Shown here: piece by piece, positions 787 through 13,603 of the stretch
How the letters are laid out: each line of letters begins with the position of its first letter
How positions within the stretch are numbered: the stretch's first letter is position 1
IMG/VR virus record: IMGVR_UViG_3300030104_003973
Span: 1-27,016 of that record
Source of the DNA: a virus
Strand: one strand, 5' to 3'
Length of the DNA: 27,016 nucleotides
Translations under genes and position numbers: made by a program
Notes under the pieces: generated by a model
Seen by the model: only the letters and a program-made list of their open reading frames with translations
What the model was told of the DNA's origin: nothing
The model's database searches: none

Positions 787-885
787 GTGTTTAAAAATCT
801 TTTTAGAAGACATAAAAAGCTAATGCTAAGACGTATTTTTGATATTGCAGTTGCTGTTGCTTTAATATACCTTATATTTGTATGA
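787..885 (+). CDS. Possible 32-residue membrane microprotein (GTG start)
   Basis: A frame from GTG at 787 to TGA at 883-885 encodes about 32 residues: a basic N-terminus (FKNLFRRHKKLMLRR) followed by one hydrophobic span (FDIAVAVALIYLIFV). An alternative ATG at 823 would give a 20-residue product that keeps the span. The ribosome site is weak, so the start is uncertain. It fills an otherwise empty gap, its stop overlaps the next ATG (ATGA), and the positive-inside charge pattern is that of a real single-pass protein. Function unknown. Confidence 0.45.
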   Translation: MFKNLFRRHKKLMLRRIFDIAVAVALIYLIFV

Positions 886-1268
886 TATTCGACGTAGTCA
901 AATTAGCAATCGGCGCTGGCACACACATTATGAAAAACAGGCAGCAGCGCAAAATGCTCGAGTCAGATGCTGCAATGTTGCATGCACAGAAAATGGCTAG
1001 TGGTGAAATTGAATATCAACAAGTTGTAAGACAATCAAATGACAAAGGATGGAAGGACGAATTCGTTCTTATTTTAATATCACTACCGATTTTACTTTTA
1101 ATATGGAGTGTCTTTAGTGATGATCCAATGATTAAAGAAAAAATAGATATATTCTTTGTACAGTTTGCAGCTCTCCCGATGTGGTACCAGATGCTATTTG
1201 TAGGCGTCGTGGGCAGCATATACGGACTCAAGGGCGTAGACATATTTAAAAACAATCAGAAAAAATGA
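882..1268 (+). CDS. Putative holin of the 3TM type
   Basis: A 128-residue protein. Residues 1-56 are hydrophilic and helical. A GWKDEF motif at about residues 56-61 opens a first membrane span (about 61-78, FVLILISLPILLLIWSVF). After a charged linker comes PMWYQ and a second span (about 102-117), then a short basic tail (KNNQKK). The order 'GWKDE + span + linker + WYQ + span with G..YG(I/L)' is what I know from the phage 'holin of 3TMs' family (Pfam HOLIN_3TMs), whose members permeabilise the inner membrane at lysis or are linked to gene-transfer-agent release. The third predicted span of the family may be the amphipathic stretch at 85-100. The start overlaps the previous frame (ATGA). Assignment is by remembered motif layout; another membrane scaffold remains possible. 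Confidence 0.62.
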   Translation: MIFDVVKLAIGAGTHIMKNRQQRKMLESDAAMLHAQKMASGEIEYQQVVRQSNDKGWKDEFVLILISLPILLLIWSVFSDDPMIKEKIDIFFVQFAALPMWYQMLFVGVVGSIYGLKGVDIFKNNQKK

Positions 1269-1280
1269 TTGCGGGGCTAA

Positions 1281-1520
1281 ATGTATTTCATCATTACGGC
1301 AATGTTGTTTTTTTCAGGGACAGATACTATTATTTATACCCAGTATGATAAAGCGACTTTTGACTCAGTTCCGGCTTGTCAAGAATTTTTGTTTCAAAAT
1401 AAGGTACAGTTAACTTTAGACCTATTAGAAAATCACAATAAAAATGGCGATATGAAAGGGTTTGAGTACTTTTGCGAGTCACGGTATTCAGTACCGACAC
1501 CAGAAGGGCCAGAAGTATGA
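1281..1520 (+). CDS. Small exported two-cysteine protein
   Basis: A 79-residue product with a hydrophobic N-terminus (residues 1-12) that could be a signal sequence or anchor, followed by a soluble part with exactly two cysteines (C33, C65) set in 'SVPACQEF' and 'FEYFCES'. If exported, the pair could form a disulfide in the periplasm. The protein at 2577-2810 has the same size, N-terminal hydrophobic run, an 'SVP' near the first Cys and a second Cys about 20-30 residues on, so the two may be distant relatives. No function is recognised. The start has only a weak ribosome site (GCGGGG). The stop overlaps the next gene (ATGA). Confidence 0.7.
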   Translation: MYFIITAMLFFSGTDTIIYTQYDKATFDSVPACQEFLFQNKVQLTLDLLENHNKNGDMKGFEYFCESRYSVPTPEGPEV

Positions 1521-2188: not shown

Positions 2189-2584
2189 ATGAAACTATCA
2201 GACTCGACTCAAATTTCTCTCCCTGCACGTAACCTTTTAGCAATTCTGGCTGCCGTGGCTGTTGGCACTATGAGTTTTTTTTCAATCCAGGAAAGATTAA
2301 ACAAGTTGGAGACTACTCAACAGCTAATGGCACAAGACATGGAAGCTGCTAATGAATTTATTTCCGGTGTCCCCAAAGGCACCATGGTCAGCCCACAGAT
2401 AAACGAGCTCTACATGCTCGTGGAATGGCTGTCAAAAACACAAGAAGAACTTCGTACTCATGTTAATAAAGAGGTTCCAGAGATTGCAAAACTAAATATG
2501 CAAATACAATTTATAGAAGAACGTATGATCGATGTTGAAATGTTAATTGATAAGATAAGACAGAACGGAATATCGCATGATTGA
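2189..2584 (+). CDS. Membrane-anchored coiled-coil protein
   Basis: A 131-residue protein with one hydrophobic span near the N-terminus (about residues 14-33, ARNLLAILAAVAVGTMSFFS) followed by heptad-rich helix (about 34-60 and 80-125, with LNKLE, IQFIEERMIDVEMLIDKI). The topology, a short cytoplasmic N-terminus with a long helical domain outside, is what inner-membrane spanin subunits and other phage envelope proteins show. Nothing here is diagnostic of a spanin, and no lipoprotein partner with a clear lipobox was found nearby. The start ribosome site is weak (GATGGAA). The end overlaps the next gene by 8 bp. Confidence 0.72.
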   Translation: MKLSDSTQISLPARNLLAILAAVAVGTMSFFSIQERLNKLETTQQLMAQDMEAANEFISGVPKGTMVSPQINELYMLVEWLSKTQEELRTHVNKEVPEIAKLNMQIQFIEERMIDVEMLIDKIRQNGISHD

Positions 2585-2810
2585 GACATTGTTCGCAGTA
2601 TTATTAATTGTAAACGGTGGTGTAATAGAATCAGTGCCAACTAAAGGCATGGCTGATTGTCTTAAAACTAAACGCACAGCTATGCAAAACATAGGCCCCG
2701 ATCAAGAAGGAATTTATATGCAATGTGTACAGGTAGAGGCTGAGGTCGAGATGGACATGGGGAGGAAGAGAATTGTCAAAATCCTCACAGAAAACCCAAC
2801 GGGGAATTAA
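2577..2810 (+). CDS. Small exported two-cysteine protein
   Basis: A 77-residue product with a hydrophobic N-terminal run (residues 4-13, TLFAVLLIVN) and two cysteines (C28, C50) in 'MADCLKTKR' and 'YMQCVQVE'. The layout parallels the 1281-1520 product: short hydrophobic start, SVP, first Cys in a helix-like segment, second Cys after a G-rich turn. It may be a periplasmic or membrane-tethered disulfide microprotein; no function is known to me. It overlaps the upstream gene by 8 bp, and its 3' end contains the ribosome site and TTG start of the next gene, a 38-bp overlap. Confidence 0.7.
   Translation: MIETLFAVLLIVNGGVIESVPTKGMADCLKTKRTAMQNIGPDQEGIYMQCVQVEAEVEMDMGRKRIVKILTENPTGN
2759..2766 (+). 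promoter_or_regulatory. Strong Shine-Dalgarno sequence for a TTG start
   Basis: GGGGAGGA lies 6 to 7 bases before the TTG at 2773, inside the 3' end of the preceding gene. It is the main argument that translation of the 73-residue membrane protein starts at TTG rather than at an internal ATG. Confidence 0.65.
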
Positions 2811-3033: not shown

Positions 3034-3039
3034 TATAAA
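3034..3039 (+). promoter_or_regulatory. Candidate -10 promoter element
   Basis: TATAAA at 3034-3039 in an AT-rich stretch is a plausible sigma70-type -10 hexamer. No convincing -35 is present at the usual spacing. If used, transcription would begin around 3045-3047, almost exactly at the 5' edge of the stem-loop that follows. AT-rich phage DNA throws up such hexamers by chance, so this is weak. Confidence 0.22.
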
Positions 3040-3043
3040 TAAA

Positions 3044-3101
3044 TATCACTAGCAACGTCTACCACAGAGGTGTCGGGACACGTGCACAGTTGCTAGTGGT
3101 A
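3044..3101 (+). ncRNA. Structured 5' leader / stem-loop (uncharacterised)
   Basis: Bases 3044-3056 pair with 3089-3101: a perfect 10-bp core (CACTAGCAAC with GTTGCTAGTG) extended by one G-T wobble and two A-T pairs, 13 bp in all. The 32-base loop is GC-richer than its surroundings and can fold again: 3063-3065 with 3082-3084, a four-base bulge, then 3070-3073 with 3078-3081 closed by a CGGG tetraloop. No T-run follows, so it does not look like an intrinsic terminator. It ends 12 bases before the Shine-Dalgarno sequence of the 3126 gene. It could be an mRNA 5' stabiliser, a translation control element, a processing site or a small RNA. I match it to no known RNA family. Confidence 0.5.
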
Positions 3102-3113
3102 ATTAATTATTCC

Positions 3114-3125: not shown

Positions 3126-3827
3126 GTGAAAAACATTCTTATTATTGTAGGTGTAACTGTAGCTATGCTATGGGTATTCGGTGCTTTAATGAATTCAGCG
3201 ATGGCAGATGTTACAAATACAGGCGCCACGACAAACGATCAAGTAAACTCTACAGGCAGTAATACCGCCATTACCGGAGGATACGAAAGTACTTCGAGCA
3301 CGACATATCAAAGTGGTTCATCAGCTAATACAACTACCACCTCAACTACTAATAACAATTCTTATACTGGTGACACTAGAACAGTTCCATCAGCATCAGC
3401 GCCTGGAATTTCAGCCATGTCGCAAGACCTTTGCACTGTAGGGGTTTCTGCTGGAATACAAAAACCATTAATAGGTGCATCTATAGGTATTACAAAACGC
3501 GATATGAATTGTGAAAGAATGAAATTATCAAAATTATTGTTTGACTACAACATGAAAGTCGCGGCTGTGTCTATACTTTGTCAAGACGCTAGAGTGTTTC
3601 AAAGCATGGTTCATGCGGGAACACCGTGTCCTTTTAATGGTAAAATTGGGACGGAAGCTCTAGAAGAATGGAATAAGTACGACGAACAAAGACCGGACTA
3701 TGAAGAGTACACAAAAGCTTTAAGTTATATGGAAGAGGTTGATGCAAAGATTACGGAGGCAATGGATGATAAGGAAGCATATATCGTTGATGGCAGCGGT
3801 AATCCTATTCAGCTCGGCAGCGAATAG
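3126..3827 (+). CDS. Exported Cys-containing phage protein of unknown function
   Basis: A 233-residue protein starting at GTG. Residues 1-27 form a signal peptide (basic start, hydrophobic core ILIIVGVTVAMLWVFGAL, SAMA cleavage site). Residues 28-90 are a Ser/Thr/Asn/Gly-rich, probably disordered linker. Residues 91-180 form a compact domain with four cysteines (C103, C129, C152, C168) and the motifs 'DLCTVGVSAG', 'CERMKLS', 'MKVAAVSILCQDARVF' and 'AGTPCPF.GKIG'. I recall this Cys-motif domain from uncharacterised proteins of marine phages; no activity is known to me. The C-terminal 50 residues are charged and helical. Export suggests action in the periplasm or outer envelope of the infected cell, or on the virion after lysis. 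The 3' end overlaps the next gene by 62 bp, implying coordinated translation. Confidence 0.8.
   Translation: MKNILIIVGVTVAMLWVFGALMNSAMADVTNTGATTNDQVNSTGSNTAITGGYESTSSTTYQSGSSANTTTTSTTNNNSYTGDTRTVPSASAPGISAMSQDLCTVGVSAGIQKPLIGASIGITKRDMNCERMKLSKLLFDYNMKVAAVSILCQDARVFQSMVHAGTPCPFNGKIGTEALEEWNKYDEQRPDYEEYTKALSYMEEVDAKITEAMDDKEAYIVDGSGNPIQLGSE
3755..3759 (+). promoter_or_regulatory. Shine-Dalgarno sequence that fixes the next start at 3766
   Basis: GGAGG at 3755-3759 sits six bases before ATG at 3766. The longer frame beginning at ATG 3739 has no comparable site and would put nine extra residues (including three Arg) ahead of the signal peptide. The site therefore decides the start. Confidence 0.65.
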
Positions 3828-5661
3828 TCAGACTGTAACTCTTGAAGACACTCCGCATCCAGGAGACACAACAGTAATAGAAACTATTACAACAGGTAAT
3901 CCTGTAACTACTGACAATTTATTATCACAACAATGGAATGACGGCAGCTGGCAAGGTGATATGTTTCCTGATTCATCAGATATAAACGAAAACATTTATC
4001 TTACTGGTAAAGATGGTAAGTATGCAGAGTCCACAATAAATTCTCAAGGACTATTAACTGAACAAGAAATACAGCAAGGTTTAACTTCTACGTTAAGTGC
4101 ACAAGTACGCTGGTGGAATCAGTGGGAAAGCACAATTGAGATGCGTCAAACAGCAACTAACGGCATTGATACAACTACTCAAAGTATAATATTAGAAGAT
4201 ACTACTAATCATAATAATCAATTTAATTCACACTCTAACACTTTAACTATTGCACCTAACCCAGAAAACACACACGGCACAATCACTGCAAGATTTTCAT
4301 TTGATATAGATAATGCTGCTGGTAATTGGAATAATGGCCACAGCGGACCAGATATTATACGTCCCGAACTCAAGCTAAACTATCAAGCTTTATCCTCTAC
4401 AACAGTAACTACAGTAACGCATTGTTACGAAAAAACACCACCTACTTGTGCTGCGCAAGACGAGATAGCTGAAGTTGATACCTTTCTTGATACGTTTGAA
4501 CAAGGCATGCAAGATTTATATTTTGAGGAACTGTATTATGAAGAGCAACCGTTTATACCACAGGAGATGGATTTTGAATACTCATTCAATGATGATTATT
4601 TTGAAGAAGAAGAGTTTGAAGTACAGGATGATTATTTAGCACTTGATGAATTTTTTTTTGAAGAGGATTACTATCAAGATGACTATTACGAAGAGCCTTT
4701 CATGGAAGAATTTATTCCAGAAACTCTTACCTTTGAGCAAGTAGAATTTTTTAATGAGCCTCCACCAATGGAAGAAATGTTTTTTAAAGAAGAAATGTTT
4801 TTTGAAGAAGAAATGTTTGTTGAGGTATTTACTGATGAAGCGTTTATAGAAGAGTTTGATGAAATGTTTGAAGAAATGCCTATGGAAGAATTTAACATGG
4901 AAATAGCAGAAGAGATGTTTGAGGAAATGTTTGAAGAATATTTTGAAGAAGAGCCTCCTATGGAAATTGTAGAAGAAATAATTGAAGAACCAATAGAAGA
5001 AGATATAATAGAAGAGGAGCCCATGGACGAACCTCCAATGGAGGAAATAGCGTCCGTTGACAACAAACCGCAAATGGAGGAACCTGATGAAGTTGAAGAA
5101 CAACCCAGTAGCGAAGAGCCTATTGCAGACGAACCGCAAGAAACAGCAGAAGATCCCCAACAAGAAGAAGTTGACGAGAAGCCAACTGAGCTCGCAGCTG
5201 TTAAAGGAAGTACAACTAAAGAACCAGCTACTGTTGACGAAGATGTTTCAGACGGACCAGAAATAAATACCGAACTTGACGTTAAAATAGCAGCCATTGA
5301 AAGTGTTATTAAATCACAGATAAAAAACACCGTACAACGAACAACGGCTACTCTTAATGTAATTAATGAGATTGTAAGTCGAGAAATGGTGTCTCAACAG
5401 CCAGACATGTCAAGCTATTTTAATATGAACGCAGCGTTGTTTGATACTAAGCAATTACCTAGCGGAAATCCTGCATTCTTCAATCAAATCAGTCTAGACA
5501 CATACGATTATACCATTTATAATGAACAGGTTGCTATGGTCACAAATATGGTCGGCCAAGATCCTGTGGTCCAGCATGAGAAAAAAATGCGGGATATCAA
5601 CAGCAGGAAAACTAAGGTTTTAATAGAATTGAAGGAGATGTTAAATGCCAGATATAATTAA
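3766..5661 (+). CDS. Exported protein with a long hyperacidic, Phe/Met-rich tract
   Basis: Read from ATG 3766 the product is 631 residues; an upstream in-frame ATG at 3739 is less likely. Residues 1-21 are a signal peptide (MIRKH start, hydrophobic AAVILF core, AANS end). Residues 22-215 are Thr/Asn-rich with beta-type patterns (LLSQQWNDGSWQGDMF, TLTIAPNPEN, ARFSFDIDN), plausibly a beta-sandwich. A close Cys pair (C220, C228) follows. Residues about 232-471 are low complexity, made of E/D with F, Y, M and P; by hand count about 99 of 240 residues are acidic, with only two Lys and no Arg. Residues about 500-631 return to ordinary helical composition. Related-looking acidic exported proteins occur in marine phages as far as I recall, without known function. 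Possible roles are cation binding, blocking or coating a basic or cationic partner, or spanning the periplasm. It overlaps genes on both sides. Confidence 0.78.
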   Translation: MIRKHISLMAAVILFSSAANSQTVTLEDTPHPGDTTVIETITTGNPVTTDNLLSQQWNDGSWQGDMFPDSSDINENIYLTGKDGKYAESTINSQGLLTEQEIQQGLTSTLSAQVRWWNQWESTIEMRQTATNGIDTTTQSIILEDTTNHNNQFNSHSNTLTIAPNPENTHGTITARFSFDIDNAAGNWNNGHSGPDIIRPELKLNYQALSSTTVTTVTHCYEKTPPTCAAQDEIAEVDTFLDTFEQGMQDLYFEELYYEEQPFIPQEMDFEYSFNDDYFEEEEFEVQDDYLALDEFFFEEDYYQDDYYEEPFMEEFIPETLTFEQVEFFNEPPPMEEMFFKEEMFFEEEMFVEVFTDEAFIEEFDEMFEEMPMEEFNMEIAEEMFEEMFEEYFEEEPPMEIVEEIIEEPIEEDIIEEEPMDEPPMEEIASVDNKPQMEEPDEVEEQPSSEEPIADEPQETAEDPQQEEVDEKPTELAAVKGSTTKEPATVDEDVSDGPEINTELDVKIAAIESVIKSQIKNTVQRTTATLNVINEIVSREMVSQQPDMSSYFNMNAALFDTKQLPSGNPAFFNQISLDTYDYTIYNEQVAMVTNMVGQDPVVQHEKKMRDINSRKTKVLIELKEMLNARYN

Positions 5662-5977
5662 TAAGTTGTCATCATATGCAGCGCTGATTGGTGTTATAGG
5701 AGCCATTGGCGGAGGCTTTTATGCATGGGGAGAATTTAATACAAGACTATCAGCAATAGAAGAACAAGAATTTGTAGTTAATCAAACTGTTGATTTAACA
5801 GATACGCATGATCGTATAGTTTTAGGTGATAAAGAAACAATGGAGGCAATACGTTCTCTTGGGGCAGCACTTGAAAGTTTAAGAGGCGACATTGCAATTA
5901 ATGCAAAGGCAATAGAATTTAACGGGATAATAATTGAAGAAGCAATAGCTCGATCAGAAAATCCATTGGCAAATTAA
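5645..5977 (+). CDS. Small membrane-anchored coiled-coil protein
   Basis: A 110-residue protein with an N-terminal Gly/Ala-rich span (about residues 11-28, YAALIGVIGAIGGGFYAW) and a helical remainder with heptad-like spacing (TRLSAIEEQEF, ETMEAIRSLGAALESLRGDI, AIEFNGIIIEEAI). An AAGGAG ribosome site (about 5632-5637) lies inside the 3' end of the acidic-protein gene, and the two genes overlap by 17 bp. The topology resembles the 2189 product, suggesting a repeated design: an inner-membrane anchor with a periplasmic or cytoplasmic coil. Its tight linkage to the two exported proteins makes a shared envelope-related process plausible, though unproven. Confidence 0.7.
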   Translation: MPDIINKLSSYAALIGVIGAIGGGFYAWGEFNTRLSAIEEQEFVVNQTVDLTDTHDRIVLGDKETMEAIRSLGAALESLRGDIAINAKAIEFNGIIIEEAIARSENPLAN

Positions 5978-5978
5978 T

Positions 5979-6317
5979 ATGGCACGAGCAAGAGGAAAAT
6001 ACTCAAAAGCTATATCGGATAGAAGTGGGGTTGCTTTTCCCTATAAAGAAATGGTAAAAGAATGGAATGGTTCTTTCGTTCACAAATCTGAATACGAAAG
6101 CAAACATCCGCAGTTAGAGCCTAAACCAGTTACTGCTGATGCACAAGCGTTGGAAAATGCAAGGCCAAAAGAAGCACACACAGTAACAGCTGGTATTGGT
6201 CGAGGTGCAGAAGCATTATTTAGTGTAAATGCATCAGGTGCTACAAAACCTGCAGATCCAATAAAAGATTTAACAATGAGATTTGAGATGGGAACAGTTA
6301 CTGTTTCTACATCATAG
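5979..6317 (+). CDS. Conserved small phage protein upstream of the adaptor
   Basis: A 112-residue soluble protein. The N-terminal 45 residues carry 'RARGKYSKAISDRSG', 'PYKEMVKEWNG', 'VHKSEYE..HPQLEPK'. I recall this segment order (A(I)xDRSGF, P..EMV.EW.G..VH.SE.E..HPQL.P) from small proteins encoded next to head-tail adaptors in many phages, some with Cys at the DR(S/C) position forming a zinc ribbon; here there is no Cys at all. The C-terminal half is Ala/Gly/Thr-rich and ends in a beta-like 'TMRFEMGTVTVST'. Likely virion-associated, exact role unknown. It begins two bases after the previous stop. Confidence 0.72.
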   Translation: MARARGKYSKAISDRSGVAFPYKEMVKEWNGSFVHKSEYESKHPQLEPKPVTADAQALENARPKEAHTVTAGIGRGAEALFSVNASGATKPADPIKDLTMRFEMGTVTVSTS

Positions 6318-6946: not shown

Positions 6947-9900
6947 ATGGCATTAGTATTAGATGATAGAGTCCGCGAAACGTCGAGCACCACAGGAACA
7001 GGCACATTAAATTTAGGTGGAGCTGTTGGTGGATTTCAAACTTTTGTTGCTGGAGTAGGTGACGGCAATACAACTTATTATGCAATTGTTCATAGAACAG
7101 AAGATGAATGGGAGTTAGGTGTAGGAACAGTTACTGATGCAACAACTGATACACTTGCACGAACAACAGTAATCTCAAGTTCTAATAGTGATAGTGCTGT
7201 TGATTTTAGTGCAGGTACTAAAGATGTATTTGTAACACAACCAGCGAGTAAAGCAGTTTATGAAGACGCAGGTGCTGATGTAACACTACCTGATGATTTA
7301 ATACTTGGATCTGATTCTGCAATATTAAAGTTTGGTGCTGATTCTGACACAACTTTGACTCACACAGATGGAACTGGTCTAACATTAAATTCAACTAATA
7401 AACTAACATTCCAAGACACAGGGACATACATCCACTCAAACGCTGATGGCGATTTAGATTTAGTATCTGACGGCACAGCTGTTGATTCTATTAATTTAGA
7501 ATCTGCTGGAGGTATTACACTAGATGCTGGTACAGCCGGTAGCGGTATTGTCTATGAAGATGACGGCACAGAAATGGCACGTATCTATAATTCTAGTAGT
7601 GATGTAATTTTAGAAACTAAAGTATCAGATAAAGATTTTTCAATTAAAGGTAATGATGGAGGTTCTGCAATTACAGCATTATCTCTTGATATGTCAGCAG
7701 CAGGAGCAGCTACATTTAATGATAAAGTAATTGCAACTGAATTAGATATTTCTGGTGACATAGATATTGATGGGGCTGCTAATTTAGACAACACAGACAT
7801 TGATGGTACACTTACTGTAGATGGTACAGCTATTGATTTTAATGCTACATCAACACTAGCTATAGACAATACTAATACAACAAACGGTATTACAATTGGT
7901 ACATCTACTTCAGGTGTACCAATTTCAATTGGACACGGAACATCTGAAGTAACTATTAATGATAATCTTACAGTTACCGGAACATTAACTCTTGGTTCTA
8001 ACGCAGAACTTACTGAAGCAGAATTAGAAATGTTAGATGGAATAACTGCAGGTACAGTTGCTGCAAGTAAAGCAGTTGTTGTTGATTCAAATAAAGACAT
8101 AGCTAGTTTTAGAAATGTAACATTAACTGGGGAACTTGATGCAGCGACACTAGATATATCAGGCAATGCTGATATTGATGGCACAACTAATTTAGATGCA
8201 GTAGACATTGATGGTGCAGTTCAACTAGATGCAACTCTTACAGTTGGTGAAGATGATACTGGTTATGATGTTAAATTTTTTGGAGCTACAGCAAGTGCAT
8301 ACATGTTATGGGATGCATCTACAGATGATTTGGTTTTAGCAGGAGCTGCAGGAATTGACCTTGCTGGCGACATAGATGTAGATGGTACAGCTAATTTAGA
8401 TGTAGTTGATATTGACGGAGCAGTTGATATGGCTACTACTTTAACTCTAGGTGGTAATGCTGATTTTAATGGTGACTTAGATGTAGACGGAACTACAAAT
8501 TTAGACGCTGTTGATATAGATGGTAATGTACAAATAGATGGTACAGTTACTGTTGGTGTTGATGACACAGGTTATGATGTAAAATTCTTTGGTGCTACTT
8601 CTGGTAGTTTTGCTTTGTGGGATGAGTCTGCAGATTCATTATTATTAACTGATTCTACACCAATTAAAGTTGGTGATTCTCAAGACATGACTTTTTATCA
8701 TGATGGGTCTAACTCTTATATTACAAATGCAACAGGTGCTTTAAAACTTGCAACTGAGACTTCAGGTATTGCAATTACAATTGGACACTCAACTTCAGAA
8801 GTTACTGTTGCCGACAACCTAACAGTAACAGGAGACTTAACCGTTAGTGGAACTACAACAACTGTAAACTCAACTACTGTTAATTTAAATGACCACAACA
8901 TAGTATTAGATAGTGGTAATAGTACATCTGCTGTTATTAATGGAGCAGGTATTACTCTTGAAGGCGGCTCGGGTGATGATGCTACATTTACATATAATAC
9001 GTCAGGACCTAAGTTTGAATTAAAACTTGGTTCTAGTTATGAAGATTTAAAAGTTGCTGAACTTATTGCATCTTCTTTAGATATTGATGGCACAGTTACT
9101 GTAGGAGTAGATGATACTGGTTATGATGTAAAATTCTTTGGTGCTACTTCTGGTAAATATATGGAGTGGGACGAATCTGCTGATCAGTTAGATGTTACAG
9201 GAAGTTTAGATGTAACTGGAAACACTGGTATGGTTGGCACATTAACCGTAGGTGTAGATGACACCGGACATGATGTTAAATTTTTTGGCGCAACATCTGG
9301 TGCTTATATGTTGTGGGATGAATCAACAGACGATTTAGTTTTAGCAGGAGCTGCAAAATTATATTTATATGATGCAGGTGGTGGAGAAAATATTTCTTCT
9401 GATGGTACTGATTTAACTATAGCTTCTGGCGCTAAAATTAATCTAACAGCTACTTCTGATGTAGTTGTTCCCGCAAATGTTGGAATAACGTTTGGAACAG
9501 GAGAAAAGATTGAGGGAGATAACACCGATTTAACAATTACATCTGGCGCTAAAATTAATCTAACAGCTACTTCTGATGTTGTTATTCCTGCAAATGTTGG
9601 AATTACATTTGGAACAGGAGAAAAGATAGAAGGTGATAGTACAGACCTTACTATTACATCTGGCGCTAAAATTAATCTAACAGCAACTTCTGACGTTGTT
9701 ATCCCTGCAAATGTTGGCATAACATTTGGAACAGGAGAAAAGATTGAGGGAGATAATACAGATCTAACTATTACATCTGGGGCAGATATTGACTTAACTG
9801 CAACTGCTGATGTTAATGTTCCGCCTAATGTAGGAATGACTTTTGGTGATGATGGCGAAAAGATAGAAGGTGATGGCACAGATCTTACAATTGCATCTAG

Positions 9901-10135
9901 TGGAGTTATAAACCTTGCAGCTGGAGGAACAACTAACCAAATTAAAGTAACTGACGGGGCTATTCTACCTATTACTGATGATGACGTAGATTTAGGTAGC
10001 GCAAGTTATCAGTTTAAAAATGCGTTTTTTGATGGTACATTAGAGGCAGATGCTATAACTATAGGAGGTTCAGCTGTAACGGCTGGAGGAGCATCTACAG
10101 CTGACGCTACCGCTCTTGCAATAGCTTTAGGATAA
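6947..10135 (+). CDS. Long repeat-rich fibre / virion shaft protein
   Basis: A 1062-residue, Asp/Thr/Gly/Ala-rich protein with hardly any Cys or Trp. Residues 1-110 (DDRVRETSSTTGTGTLNLGGA, GNTTYYAIVHRTEDEWELGVGTV, TLARTTVISSSNS) form an N-terminal beta domain that I recall from the start of many marine phage fibres and that probably attaches to the virion. The rest is built of repeats: 'DIDGTxNLDxVDIDG' units, four copies of a VG.DDTG.DVKFFGATxG module, and 39-residue 'TDLTITSGAKINLTATSDVV' units. The C-terminus has 'LPITDDDVDLGSASYQFKNAFFDGT', common in fibre ends, and no self-processing chaperone. Most likely a trimeric beta-rich shaft or side fibre. Coding is normal throughout despite the repeats. 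Confidence 0.82.
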   Translation: MALVLDDRVRETSSTTGTGTLNLGGAVGGFQTFVAGVGDGNTTYYAIVHRTEDEWELGVGTVTDATTDTLARTTVISSSNSDSAVDFSAGTKDVFVTQPASKAVYEDAGADVTLPDDLILGSDSAILKFGADSDTTLTHTDGTGLTLNSTNKLTFQDTGTYIHSNADGDLDLVSDGTAVDSINLESAGGITLDAGTAGSGIVYEDDGTEMARIYNSSSDVILETKVSDKDFSIKGNDGGSAITALSLDMSAAGAATFNDKVIATELDISGDIDIDGAANLDNTDIDGTLTVDGTAIDFNATSTLAIDNTNTTNGITIGTSTSGVPISIGHGTSEVTINDNLTVTGTLTLGSNAELTEAELEMLDGITAGTVAASKAVVVDSNKDIASFRNVTLTGELDAATLDISGNADIDGTTNLDAVDIDGAVQLDATLTVGEDDTGYDVKFFGATASAYMLWDASTDDLVLAGAAGIDLAGDIDVDGTANLDVVDIDGAVDMATTLTLGGNADFNGDLDVDGTTNLDAVDIDGNVQIDGTVTVGVDDTGYDVKFFGATSGSFALWDESADSLLLTDSTPIKVGDSQDMTFYHDGSNSYITNATGALKLATETSGIAITIGHSTSEVTVADNLTVTGDLTVSGTTTTVNSTTVNLNDHNIVLDSGNSTSAVINGAGITLEGGSGDDATFTYNTSGPKFELKLGSSYEDLKVAELIASSLDIDGTVTVGVDDTGYDVKFFGATSGKYMEWDESADQLDVTGSLDVTGNTGMVGTLTVGVDDTGHDVKFFGATSGAYMLWDESTDDLVLAGAAKLYLYDAGGGENISSDGTDLTIASGAKINLTATSDVVVPANVGITFGTGEKIEGDNTDLTITSGAKINLTATSDVVIPANVGITFGTGEKIEGDSTDLTITSGAKINLTATSDVVIPANVGITFGTGEKIEGDNTDLTITSGADIDLTATADVNVPPNVGMTFGDDGEKIEGDGTDLTIASSGVINLAAGGTTNQIKVTDGAILPITDDDVDLGSASYQFKNAFFDGTLEADAITIGGSAVTAGGASTADATALAIALG
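8243..9343 (+). repeat. Four dispersed copies of a 32-residue fibre module
   Basis: Copies begin at 8243, 8552, 9101 and 9248, each about 96 bp. The shared protein pattern is VG(V/E)DDTG(Y/H)DVKFFGAT(S/A)(G/S).(Y/F)..W(D)(E/A)S.D.L. The aromatic/Asp pattern suggests one repeating beta module. Nucleotide identity is partial, so the duplications are not recent or are under selection for sequence change. Confidence 0.7.
9407..9877 (+). repeat. Tandem 117-bp repeats (four units) in the fibre gene
   Basis: Units start at 9407, 9524, 9641 (each 117 bp, 39 codons) and 9758 (120 bp, one extra Asp codon), followed by a degenerate fifth start at 9878. The pattern is TDLTI(T/A)SGA.I.LTATSDV.(V/I)P.NVG(I/M)TFG.GEKIEGD. 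The first three units are nearly identical in DNA, while the fourth has diverged, indicating in-frame tandem duplication. Such arrays can change fibre length by recombination. Confidence 0.85.
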
Positions 10136-12496: not shown

Positions 12497-13603
12497 ATGA
12501 GTCAAACAAAAGTAGGAGCACCATTTGTAGAGAACAGTAGACACTTTAGAAATTTTATAATTAATGGTGACATGGAAATATGGCAAAGAGCCACTGCTGC
12601 AACTGCAGTATCAGACGGTTCTTATTCTGCATGTGACAGATGGCATTTTCCTTTTTATGGCACAGATGGTGCGATGACAACTGAAAGAGAAACTTTGTCT
12701 GACGCTGACCAAGCCACAACAGGAATGTATTATTGTAATTTATTAACATGCACAACTGCAGATACAAGTGTTGCAGCAAACTCTATTGTTCAAATGAGAC
12801 AAACAATTGAAGCTCAATTTTGTCAACCTTTTAAATACGGAACATCAGCAGCTAAAACATTAACTCTGTCTTTTTACGCAAAAGCAAATGCAAGCAAAAC
12901 ATATGGTGTCAGTATATGGAAGAGAGACTCAACTGCATATTATTGGTTTCAAGATATAGCTGTTACAACGTCTTGGAAAAAATTTGAAATAGTTATATCT
13001 CCAACAGCTGGTTCAACAAGTTTAATAACAGCTAGTGGTGGAGACATTGTTAATGATAACGGTGAAGGTATTGAGGTTAGTTTTGTTTTAGCAAGTGGTT
13101 CCAATTATCAAGCAACGGCCGACACATGGACAGCAAACCAAGATTTTAACACATCAAGCTTAGATAATTTTTTAAGCTCAACAGATAACACATTTAGAGT
13201 TACTGGTGTTCAACTAGAAATAGGAGACGCAGCCACAGAATTTGAACACCTACCTCATGATGTTCAGTTACAAAGATGTCAAAGATATTATCAAAGATGG
13301 CAAGCTGATCAAACTTATGACCAAATGGGAGAAGGTGCAGCTTGGAGCGATACAGCTTTTATATGGTCATATAGATTATGCCCACGAATGAGAGCACAAC
13401 CTACAGCAGCAGCCACTGGGAATTTTGCTGGTGCTATGGTTGGTAATGATAGAGCTTTATCAAGTATTGCAATCAATAGAACAACAGTTGATGTATGCCA
13501 ATTTACTAGTGCTATATCAGATAATAATGAACAAGGTACACCTGGTTTTTGTAGAGACAACAATGATGGTGATGCTTTTATAGAGTTTAAAGCGGAGTTA
13601 TAA
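12497..13603 (+). CDS. Carbohydrate-binding-type tail fibre/receptor-binding protein
   Basis: A 368-residue protein of a layout very common in phage fibre loci. It opens with 'NFIINGDMEIWQRAT' (residues 19-33), then 'DRWHF', a beta-sandwich to about residue 240 with 'LTLSFYAKANASKTY' and 'TTSWKKFEIVI', and the signature 'VTGVQLEIGDAATEFEHLPHDVQLQRCQRYY' (about 235-265, key parts VQLE.G..AT.FE, C.RYY). The first 250 residues resemble a carbohydrate-binding (CBM/galactose-binding-like) fold. The C-terminal 100 residues vary among phages and probably contact the receptor. Ribosome site TAGGAG upstream. Likely a host-range determinant. Confidence 0.8.
   Translation: MSQTKVGAPFVENSRHFRNFIINGDMEIWQRATAATAVSDGSYSACDRWHFPFYGTDGAMTTERETLSDADQATTGMYYCNLLTCTTADTSVAANSIVQMRQTIEAQFCQPFKYGTSAAKTLTLSFYAKANASKTYGVSIWKRDSTAYYWFQDIAVTTSWKKFEIVISPTAGSTSLITASGGDIVNDNGEGIEVSFVLASGSNYQATADTWTANQDFNTSSLDNFLSSTDNTFRVTGVQLEIGDAATEFEHLPHDVQLQRCQRYYQRWQADQTYDQMGEGAAWSDTAFIWSYRLCPRMRAQPTAAATGNFAGAMVGNDRALSSIAINRTTVDVCQFTSAISDNNEQGTPGFCRDNNDGDAFIEFKAEL

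Follow-up and report, generated by a model that had tools for sequence, protein, structure and literature searches.

A recurrent three-gene cassette of marine phages encodes predicted envelope-directed proteins that may assist lysis at the outer membrane

Three consecutive genes, here called A, B and C, form a conserved cassette in marine phages, and the evidence supports the view that they are an envelope-directed unit. The reading that we prefer, with a probability of roughly 45%, is that their products make up a late envelope complex that helps to lyse the cell at the outer membrane, in a role like that of spanins but outside every spanin family. The cassette was analysed in a 27,016-nt stretch of viral DNA (IMG/VR record IMGVR_UViG_3300030104_003973, positions 1 to 27,016), which we call the window, and in related sequences. 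No description of the cassette was found in the open-access literature. None of A, B and C falls into a Pfam or NCBIfam family, and PHROGs cover only A (PHROG 20531, E 8.9e-12, function not given), leaving B and C without a PHROG. The PADLOC models of anti-phage defence did not match A or B and gave only KwaB at E 0.05 for C.

The features of the cassette and of its neighbourhood are listed in Table 1. GGGGGGAG stands upstream of the GTG start of gene A. The mechanical open reading frame of gene B opens earlier, at TTG 3739; the ATG preceded by the Shine-Dalgarno sequence, six bases past ACGGAGG, yields an A/B overlap of 62 bp, which is the commonest value among the relatives (55 loci, with 53-59 bp in 25 more). 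This overlap comprises the first 20 codons of B, i.e. nearly all of the signal-like segment of B is encoded in the end of A, in the other frame. The overlap between B and C is mostly 1-20 bp among the loci. The coordinates, the 62-bp overlap, the Shine-Dalgarno-defined start of B and the overlapping membrane coiled-coil gene after B were all as described in an earlier, sequence-only reading of the window. That reading also proposed a shared leader, which holds for the window, where a hairpin precedes A, but not outside a few near relatives: exact copies of the hairpin core occur in only six contigs, always before A. With this narrow distribution and no Rfam match, a universal leader RNA for the cassette was rejected. 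The scan for promoters and terminators gave nothing clearly above chance.

Table 1. Positions of the cassette genes and of accompanying features; coordinates refer to the window unless a locus is named.
Feature	Position	Strand	Remarks
PHROG 2524 membrane protein	882-1268	+	holin-like by position (after endolysin in relatives)
Small 2-Cys protein, hydrophobic N-terminus	1281-1520	+	recurs upstream of A
TM and coiled-coil protein, PHROG 20984	2189-2584	+	similar protein replaces C in HTVC115P
Small 2-Cys protein, hydrophobic N-terminus, PHROG 24646	2577-2810	+	
Cationic hydrophobic protein, 73 aa	2773-2994	+	
Leader hairpin	3035-3110 (arms 3035-3056 and 3089-3110)	+	before gene A, z about -4
Gene A	3126-3827	+	GTG start, 233 aa, predicted exported-type protein
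Shine-Dalgarno sequence of gene B, ACGGAGG	3753-3759	+	inside gene A
Gene B	3766-5661	+	ATG start, 631 aa, predicted exported-type protein
Gene C	5645-5977	+	110 aa, TM and coiled coil, overlaps the end of B by 17 bp
Right flank of island, PHROG 28581 homologue	5979-6317	+	HTVC023P gp55 / HTVC027P gp65
Roseophage lipoprotein ORFs	L088 5603-5863; L091 1725-1940; L207 886-1101		directly before A

Relatives of A were confirmed in 429 stretches with A alone and in at least 599 with a broader profile. Gene order was followed in the 120 loci whose sequence runs for at least 3 kb beyond A; many of these contigs are near-duplicates and many are fragments, so that the counts do not stand for 120 independent events. 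B is the next gene after A in 119 of the 120, and C follows in 112, in order and on the same strand. Co-occurrence in relatives had been named beforehand as one of the points on which the claim of a single unit should stand or fall, and the order kept in 112 of the 120 testable loci upholds it.

Judging from their sequences, A and B both look exported. Signal peptides were called with a heuristic of our own rather than with SignalP, by a basic n-region, a hydrophobic h-region and small residues at -3/-1. By this heuristic A has a signal-like start with a putative cleavage site, MKNILIIVGVTVAMLWVFGALMNSAMA^DVTN, and B has the signal-like start MIRKHISLMAAVILFSSAA(NSQ). The pattern was also called in 177 of 190 A homologues and in 161 of 172 B homologues, with a background of 20 out of 423 other plus-strand ORFs of at least 200 aa. 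In other words, the signal-peptide starts proposed earlier for both proteins are present as a heuristic pattern and kept in more than 90% of homologues. Residues 3-22 of A are only 23% identical between homologues and keep their hydrophobic character, whereas identity is 57-65% in the mature part and 65% in the conserved domain; an N-terminus that diverges faster than the mature part matches the usual evolution of signal peptides. Cleavage, export and the envelope layer of each protein are predictions from these patterns.

These patterns bear on the idea that A and B are packaged in the virion or attached to the particle, e.g. as glycan-binding decorations. The cassette genes do stand among virion genes, and the predicted sugar-binding-type domain of B (see below) belongs to a class found in phage appendages. 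Nevertheless, the signal-peptide pattern persists at this frequency despite the divergence of the sequences, A has four invariant cysteines, and the island that holds the cassette is dispensable to the virion gene order, so we consider a virion or entry component improbable.

Protein A is composed of the predicted signal peptide, a Thr/Ser/Asn-rich disordered segment (residues 26-100) and a conserved domain (101-195) with a beta-hairpin and helices. Cysteines 103, 129, 152 and 168 are invariant in 64 of 64 aligned homologues, which is consistent with two disulfides in an oxidising compartment. AlphaFold models of A and B were built from alignments of the locus proteins. The model of A is of moderate confidence (pLDDT 63, pTM 0.37); in it, a signal helix comes first, the hairpin at 104-125 has one face with conserved Gly/Ser and an opposite face of mostly aliphatic residues, and the other helices come after it. 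Foldseek and VIA-align gave no convincing solved match for the fold of A, and there was no sequence match in the PDB.

The Thr/Ser/Asn-rich segment could also be read as part of an exported matrix, adhesin or uptake function that alters the behaviour of the infected cell, as suggested for phage curli genes, and pelagiphages are known to carry other exported cassettes of unclear use, namely curli/T8SS genes (PMC9599517, PMC7029224, PMC9004378). Pfam and NCBIfam gave no match to curli proteins for A, B or C, however, by which a CsgG/CsgF identity was rejected, and the lysin linkage of the cassette and the membrane-anchor-like appearance of C also speak against such a host-physiology module, which we hold to be improbable.

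Protein B begins with the predicted signal peptide, which is followed by a beta-sandwich (about 35-218), a CX7C pair, a Glu-rich disordered linker (about 256-500) and a helical C-terminus (502-630); its net charge is -117. The beta-sandwich is modelled confidently, with a pLDDT of about 90 over most of 80-180, and resembles the sugar-binding protein Fbs2 (Z 13.6, rmsd 3.0 A, 151 residues) as well as Fbs1, CBM16, CBM61 and the PP2 lectin. By the criterion of fold, the modelled B carries a carbohydrate-binding-module-like (CBM-like) beta-sandwich. Its likeness to CBM16/CBM61 and to the Fbs sugar-binding domain, over residues of about 41-207 (Z 11-13.6), is one of fold, with an identity of only about 10-13%, and Pfam CBM_4_9 appeared below the cut-off in one homologue. 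B is a candidate glycan-binding protein, as fold likeness alone does not show binding.

A sugar-binding fold would suit masking equally well. A and B could be embedded in the outer membrane or exposed on it, where they would bind or mask the receptor glycan of the phage; further phages would then be excluded from the infected cell, or its debris would not capture the released progeny, a role like that of T5 Llp or Cor. The CBM-like fold is the fold class of phage tailspike domains, in S28C10 and CRP-810 the cassette lies between tail-fibre genes and terminase or capsid genes, and like exclusion genes it is accessory and apparently horizontally mobile. On the other hand, the sandwich has no profile link to the tail-fibre protein of the window (12497-13603), of which it was rejected as a copy, and in many genomes the cassette occupies a late-region, lysin-linked position, whereas exclusion genes are usually early or lysogenic. 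We regard such conditioning of the cell surface as rather unlikely.

Protein C has an N-terminal hydrophobic membrane segment, a coiled coil and an NPL motif near the C-terminus. Both C and the PHROG 20984 protein have a predicted layout that would suit an i-spanin, i.e. an N-terminal transmembrane segment (TM) and then a periplasmic coiled coil; the Rz-like PHROG 739 was found at E 0.48 for the latter, with no match for C. Two roseophage products annotated as lysozyme, CRP-810 gp51 (L088 7207-7629) and CRP-207 gp73 (L091 3292-3873), are C-type by the same layout of TM, coiled coil and NPL end. Roseophage products named lysozyme or OmpA family are members of the A-B-C cassette, which corrects their annotation. 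The C homologues of HTVC023P and HTVC033P (L086 8029-8388; L085 8050-8373) have His-rich loops, which are possible metal sites.

The genes had been placed inside a virion gene block. Virion genes do surround them, but the cassette block itself is an insertion with lysis and membrane genes, and an envelope/lysis island within the virion gene block is the more fitting description of the surroundings. Five of the seven window products with a best 19-residue hydropathy mean of at least 1.6 are encoded between 882 and 3827. The island also encodes, at 1604-2175, two small, very Lys/Arg-rich proteins, one of them a DUF6321 protein whose match in the HTVC023P island is 85% identical over 55 residues. 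The gene after the adaptor (6947-10135) encodes a 1062-aa protein, likely of tail-fibre type, with strong internal DNA repeats.

In HTVC023P the island (gp43-gp53, between gp42 and gp54) contains a DUF6321-type protein, A, B, C and an M15 peptidase; its gp44 (L204 14432-15076) is annotated PurM, yet matches PHROG 3704 (ferredoxin) at 1e-77. L002 and further relatives of the window carry A-B-C together with an amidase in an island between the homologues of gp54 and gp55, i.e. the same cassette travels with two unrelated endolysins and in two neighbouring positions. HTVC027P and 023Pt_psg01 lack A-B-C, and there the homologues of gp54 and gp55 are direct neighbours; in HTVC027P an M15 peptidase is retained beside the replication genes. 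L002 is 98% identical to the window from 881 on (over 8 kb). It has the amidase directly before PHROG 2524, and a 36-aa TM protein upstream, where the window instead has unrelated genes (118-668). The identity breaks exactly at the position of the amidase, and the window has no lysin beside the cassette; the break at 881 is either a mosaic junction or an assembly join.

A peptidoglycan hydrolase is encoded on the same strand, from -4 to +6.5 kb, in 38 of the 66 loci with enough flank, a count that leaves out a few endolysins which a PHROG scan found among unclassified neighbours and which are not assignable to loci. The families were amidase, GH24-like, M15 and a fourth, searched with phmmer from few annotated seeds, and the lysin usually abuts, directly before PHROG 2524. 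Adjacency to a lysin is frequent but has exceptions: the lysin of HTVC202P, Baldr, HTVC115P and CRP-810 lies away from the cassette, which weakens strict membership of a lysis module. What these isolates share is a cassette on the late, structural strand, in many cases close to tail-fibre or terminase genes. Mosig departs from this pattern, the displayed neighbours of its cassette being a primase and a reductase. Among the three functions suggested by the sequence-only reading, envelope weakening fits best, since endolysin and holin-like genes are often neighbours of the cassette, while superinfection exclusion and receptor coating are less favoured.

A was detectable in only eleven of 50,697 phage records. 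These are the Pelagibacter phages Mosig (Kyanoviridae), HTVC202P, Baldr, HTVC033P (HMO-2011-type), HTVC023P and HTVC115P, the Autographiviridae phage S28C10, the roseophages CRP-207 and CRP-810, and two freshwater phages. The cassette is carried by Pelagibacter and Roseobacter phages from several unrelated phage groups. The helicase of the window shares 62% identity with its 023Pt_psg01 counterpart and has matches in HTVC027P and HTVC023P too, which places the window phage near the HTVC023P-type pelagiphages. In the tree of A, by contrast, the window groups with Mosig (support 91/87) and stands apart from HTVC023P, the type that the remainder of the phage resembles. This mismatch points, with moderate support, to horizontal movement of the cassette. 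Cellular homologues were considered and rejected: the 19 matching MAG contigs are spread over unrelated phyla and have the look of binned phage contigs.

Neither A nor B has a lipobox, so the o-spanin of a canonical two-component spanin is lacking and membership in that class was rejected; nor was the layout of a unimolecular spanin seen, i.e. an N-terminal lipobox and a C-terminal TM in one protein. A pattern scan (not a trained predictor) gave no lipoprotein candidates in the window, in HTVC023P (14-61 kb) or in the complete HTVC202P. In CRP-810, CRP-207 and ct7L0027 a lipobox ORF of 71-86 aa, not annotated as a lipoprotein, precedes A as an extra gene beside A-B-C. The Cys pattern of these lipoproteins resembles the helical motif of A (profile E 0.003-0.005 among the ORFs of all loci, hhalign probability 55%, PHROG 20531 E 0.007), and they are the only non-A matches, all in the same place and in three of 50,697 records; the likeness is weak, and convergence might account for it. 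The lipoprotein gene of CRP-810 and that of ct7L0027 come just after a TM coiled-coil gene, which is the layout of a two-component spanin pair. We note that HTVC027P, a close relative, lyses its host without A-B-C, and that a scan of HTVC027P and 023Pt_psg01 up to their last 8-10 kb found no lipoprotein spanin in either. The idea that the cassette is a required replacement for spanins is weakened by these phages, which show neither.

Lysis at the outer membrane leads among the readings because the cassette is linked to lysins, has a lipoprotein neighbour in roseophages and encodes products with an anchor-strut-partner anatomy. According to it, A-B-C would be a late-region cassette of marine phages with mostly alphaproteobacterial hosts that helps progeny release by destabilising the periplasm and outer membrane. 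Sec would export A and B, and C would be an inner-membrane protein. B would bind a glycan, either peptidoglycan or LPS core, through its CBM-like head, cross the periplasm with its long acidic linker and contact the coiled coil of C with its helical tail, while the disulfide-bonded domain of A would act on the outer membrane from the periplasmic side. After removal of the peptidoglycan by the endolysin, the complex would bridge or disrupt the outer membrane, in a spanin-like role played by unrelated proteins. The contacts, the timing and the part in lysis are inferred. A bolder form, unlikely in our estimate, is a lipid-anchor-free machine for disrupting the outer membrane, made of an inner-membrane coiled-coil anchor, a glycan-binding acidic strut in the periplasm and a disulfide-bonded A that acts at the outer membrane and is possibly oligomeric through the alternating hairpin 104-125; this machine would have spread horizontally among phages of the commonest ocean bacteria and would stand in for missing spanins.

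In a survey of spanins, about 13% of the genomes had none that could be recognised, and the way in which spanin-less phages breach the outer membrane is an acknowledged open question (PMC6139136). The A-B-C cassette is a concrete and recurrent candidate for this step in phages that infect the most abundant bacteria of the ocean. With HTVC023P, HTVC033P, HTVC202P and CRP-810 as cultured carriers and HTVC027P, for which RNA-seq data have been published (PMC12753301), as a cassette-free natural control, the question is directly testable.

Among the known systems, the exclusion or receptor-masking proteins T5 Llp and phi80 Cor are single small proteins; they have an exported, envelope-directed and accessory character, which the cassette appears to share. 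The csgGF curli genes of pelagiphages and methylophages are also genes of marine phages for exported, outer-membrane-directed proteins, and a role in lysis timing has been proposed for them as well, but they show no sequence match to the cassette and differ in genes and layout (PMC9004378, PMC9599517). With spanins of the lambda Rz/Rz1 type (PMC6139136) the cassette has in common a predicted small membrane coiled-coil protein with apparently exported partner(s), overlapping genes and a frequent position near endolysin or holin-like genes, and the roseophage cassettes have in addition a lipoprotein directly upstream. In contrast to such spanins, A and B have no lipobox, C has no significant Rz-like PHROG match, and there is a third, much larger partner with a CBM-like head.
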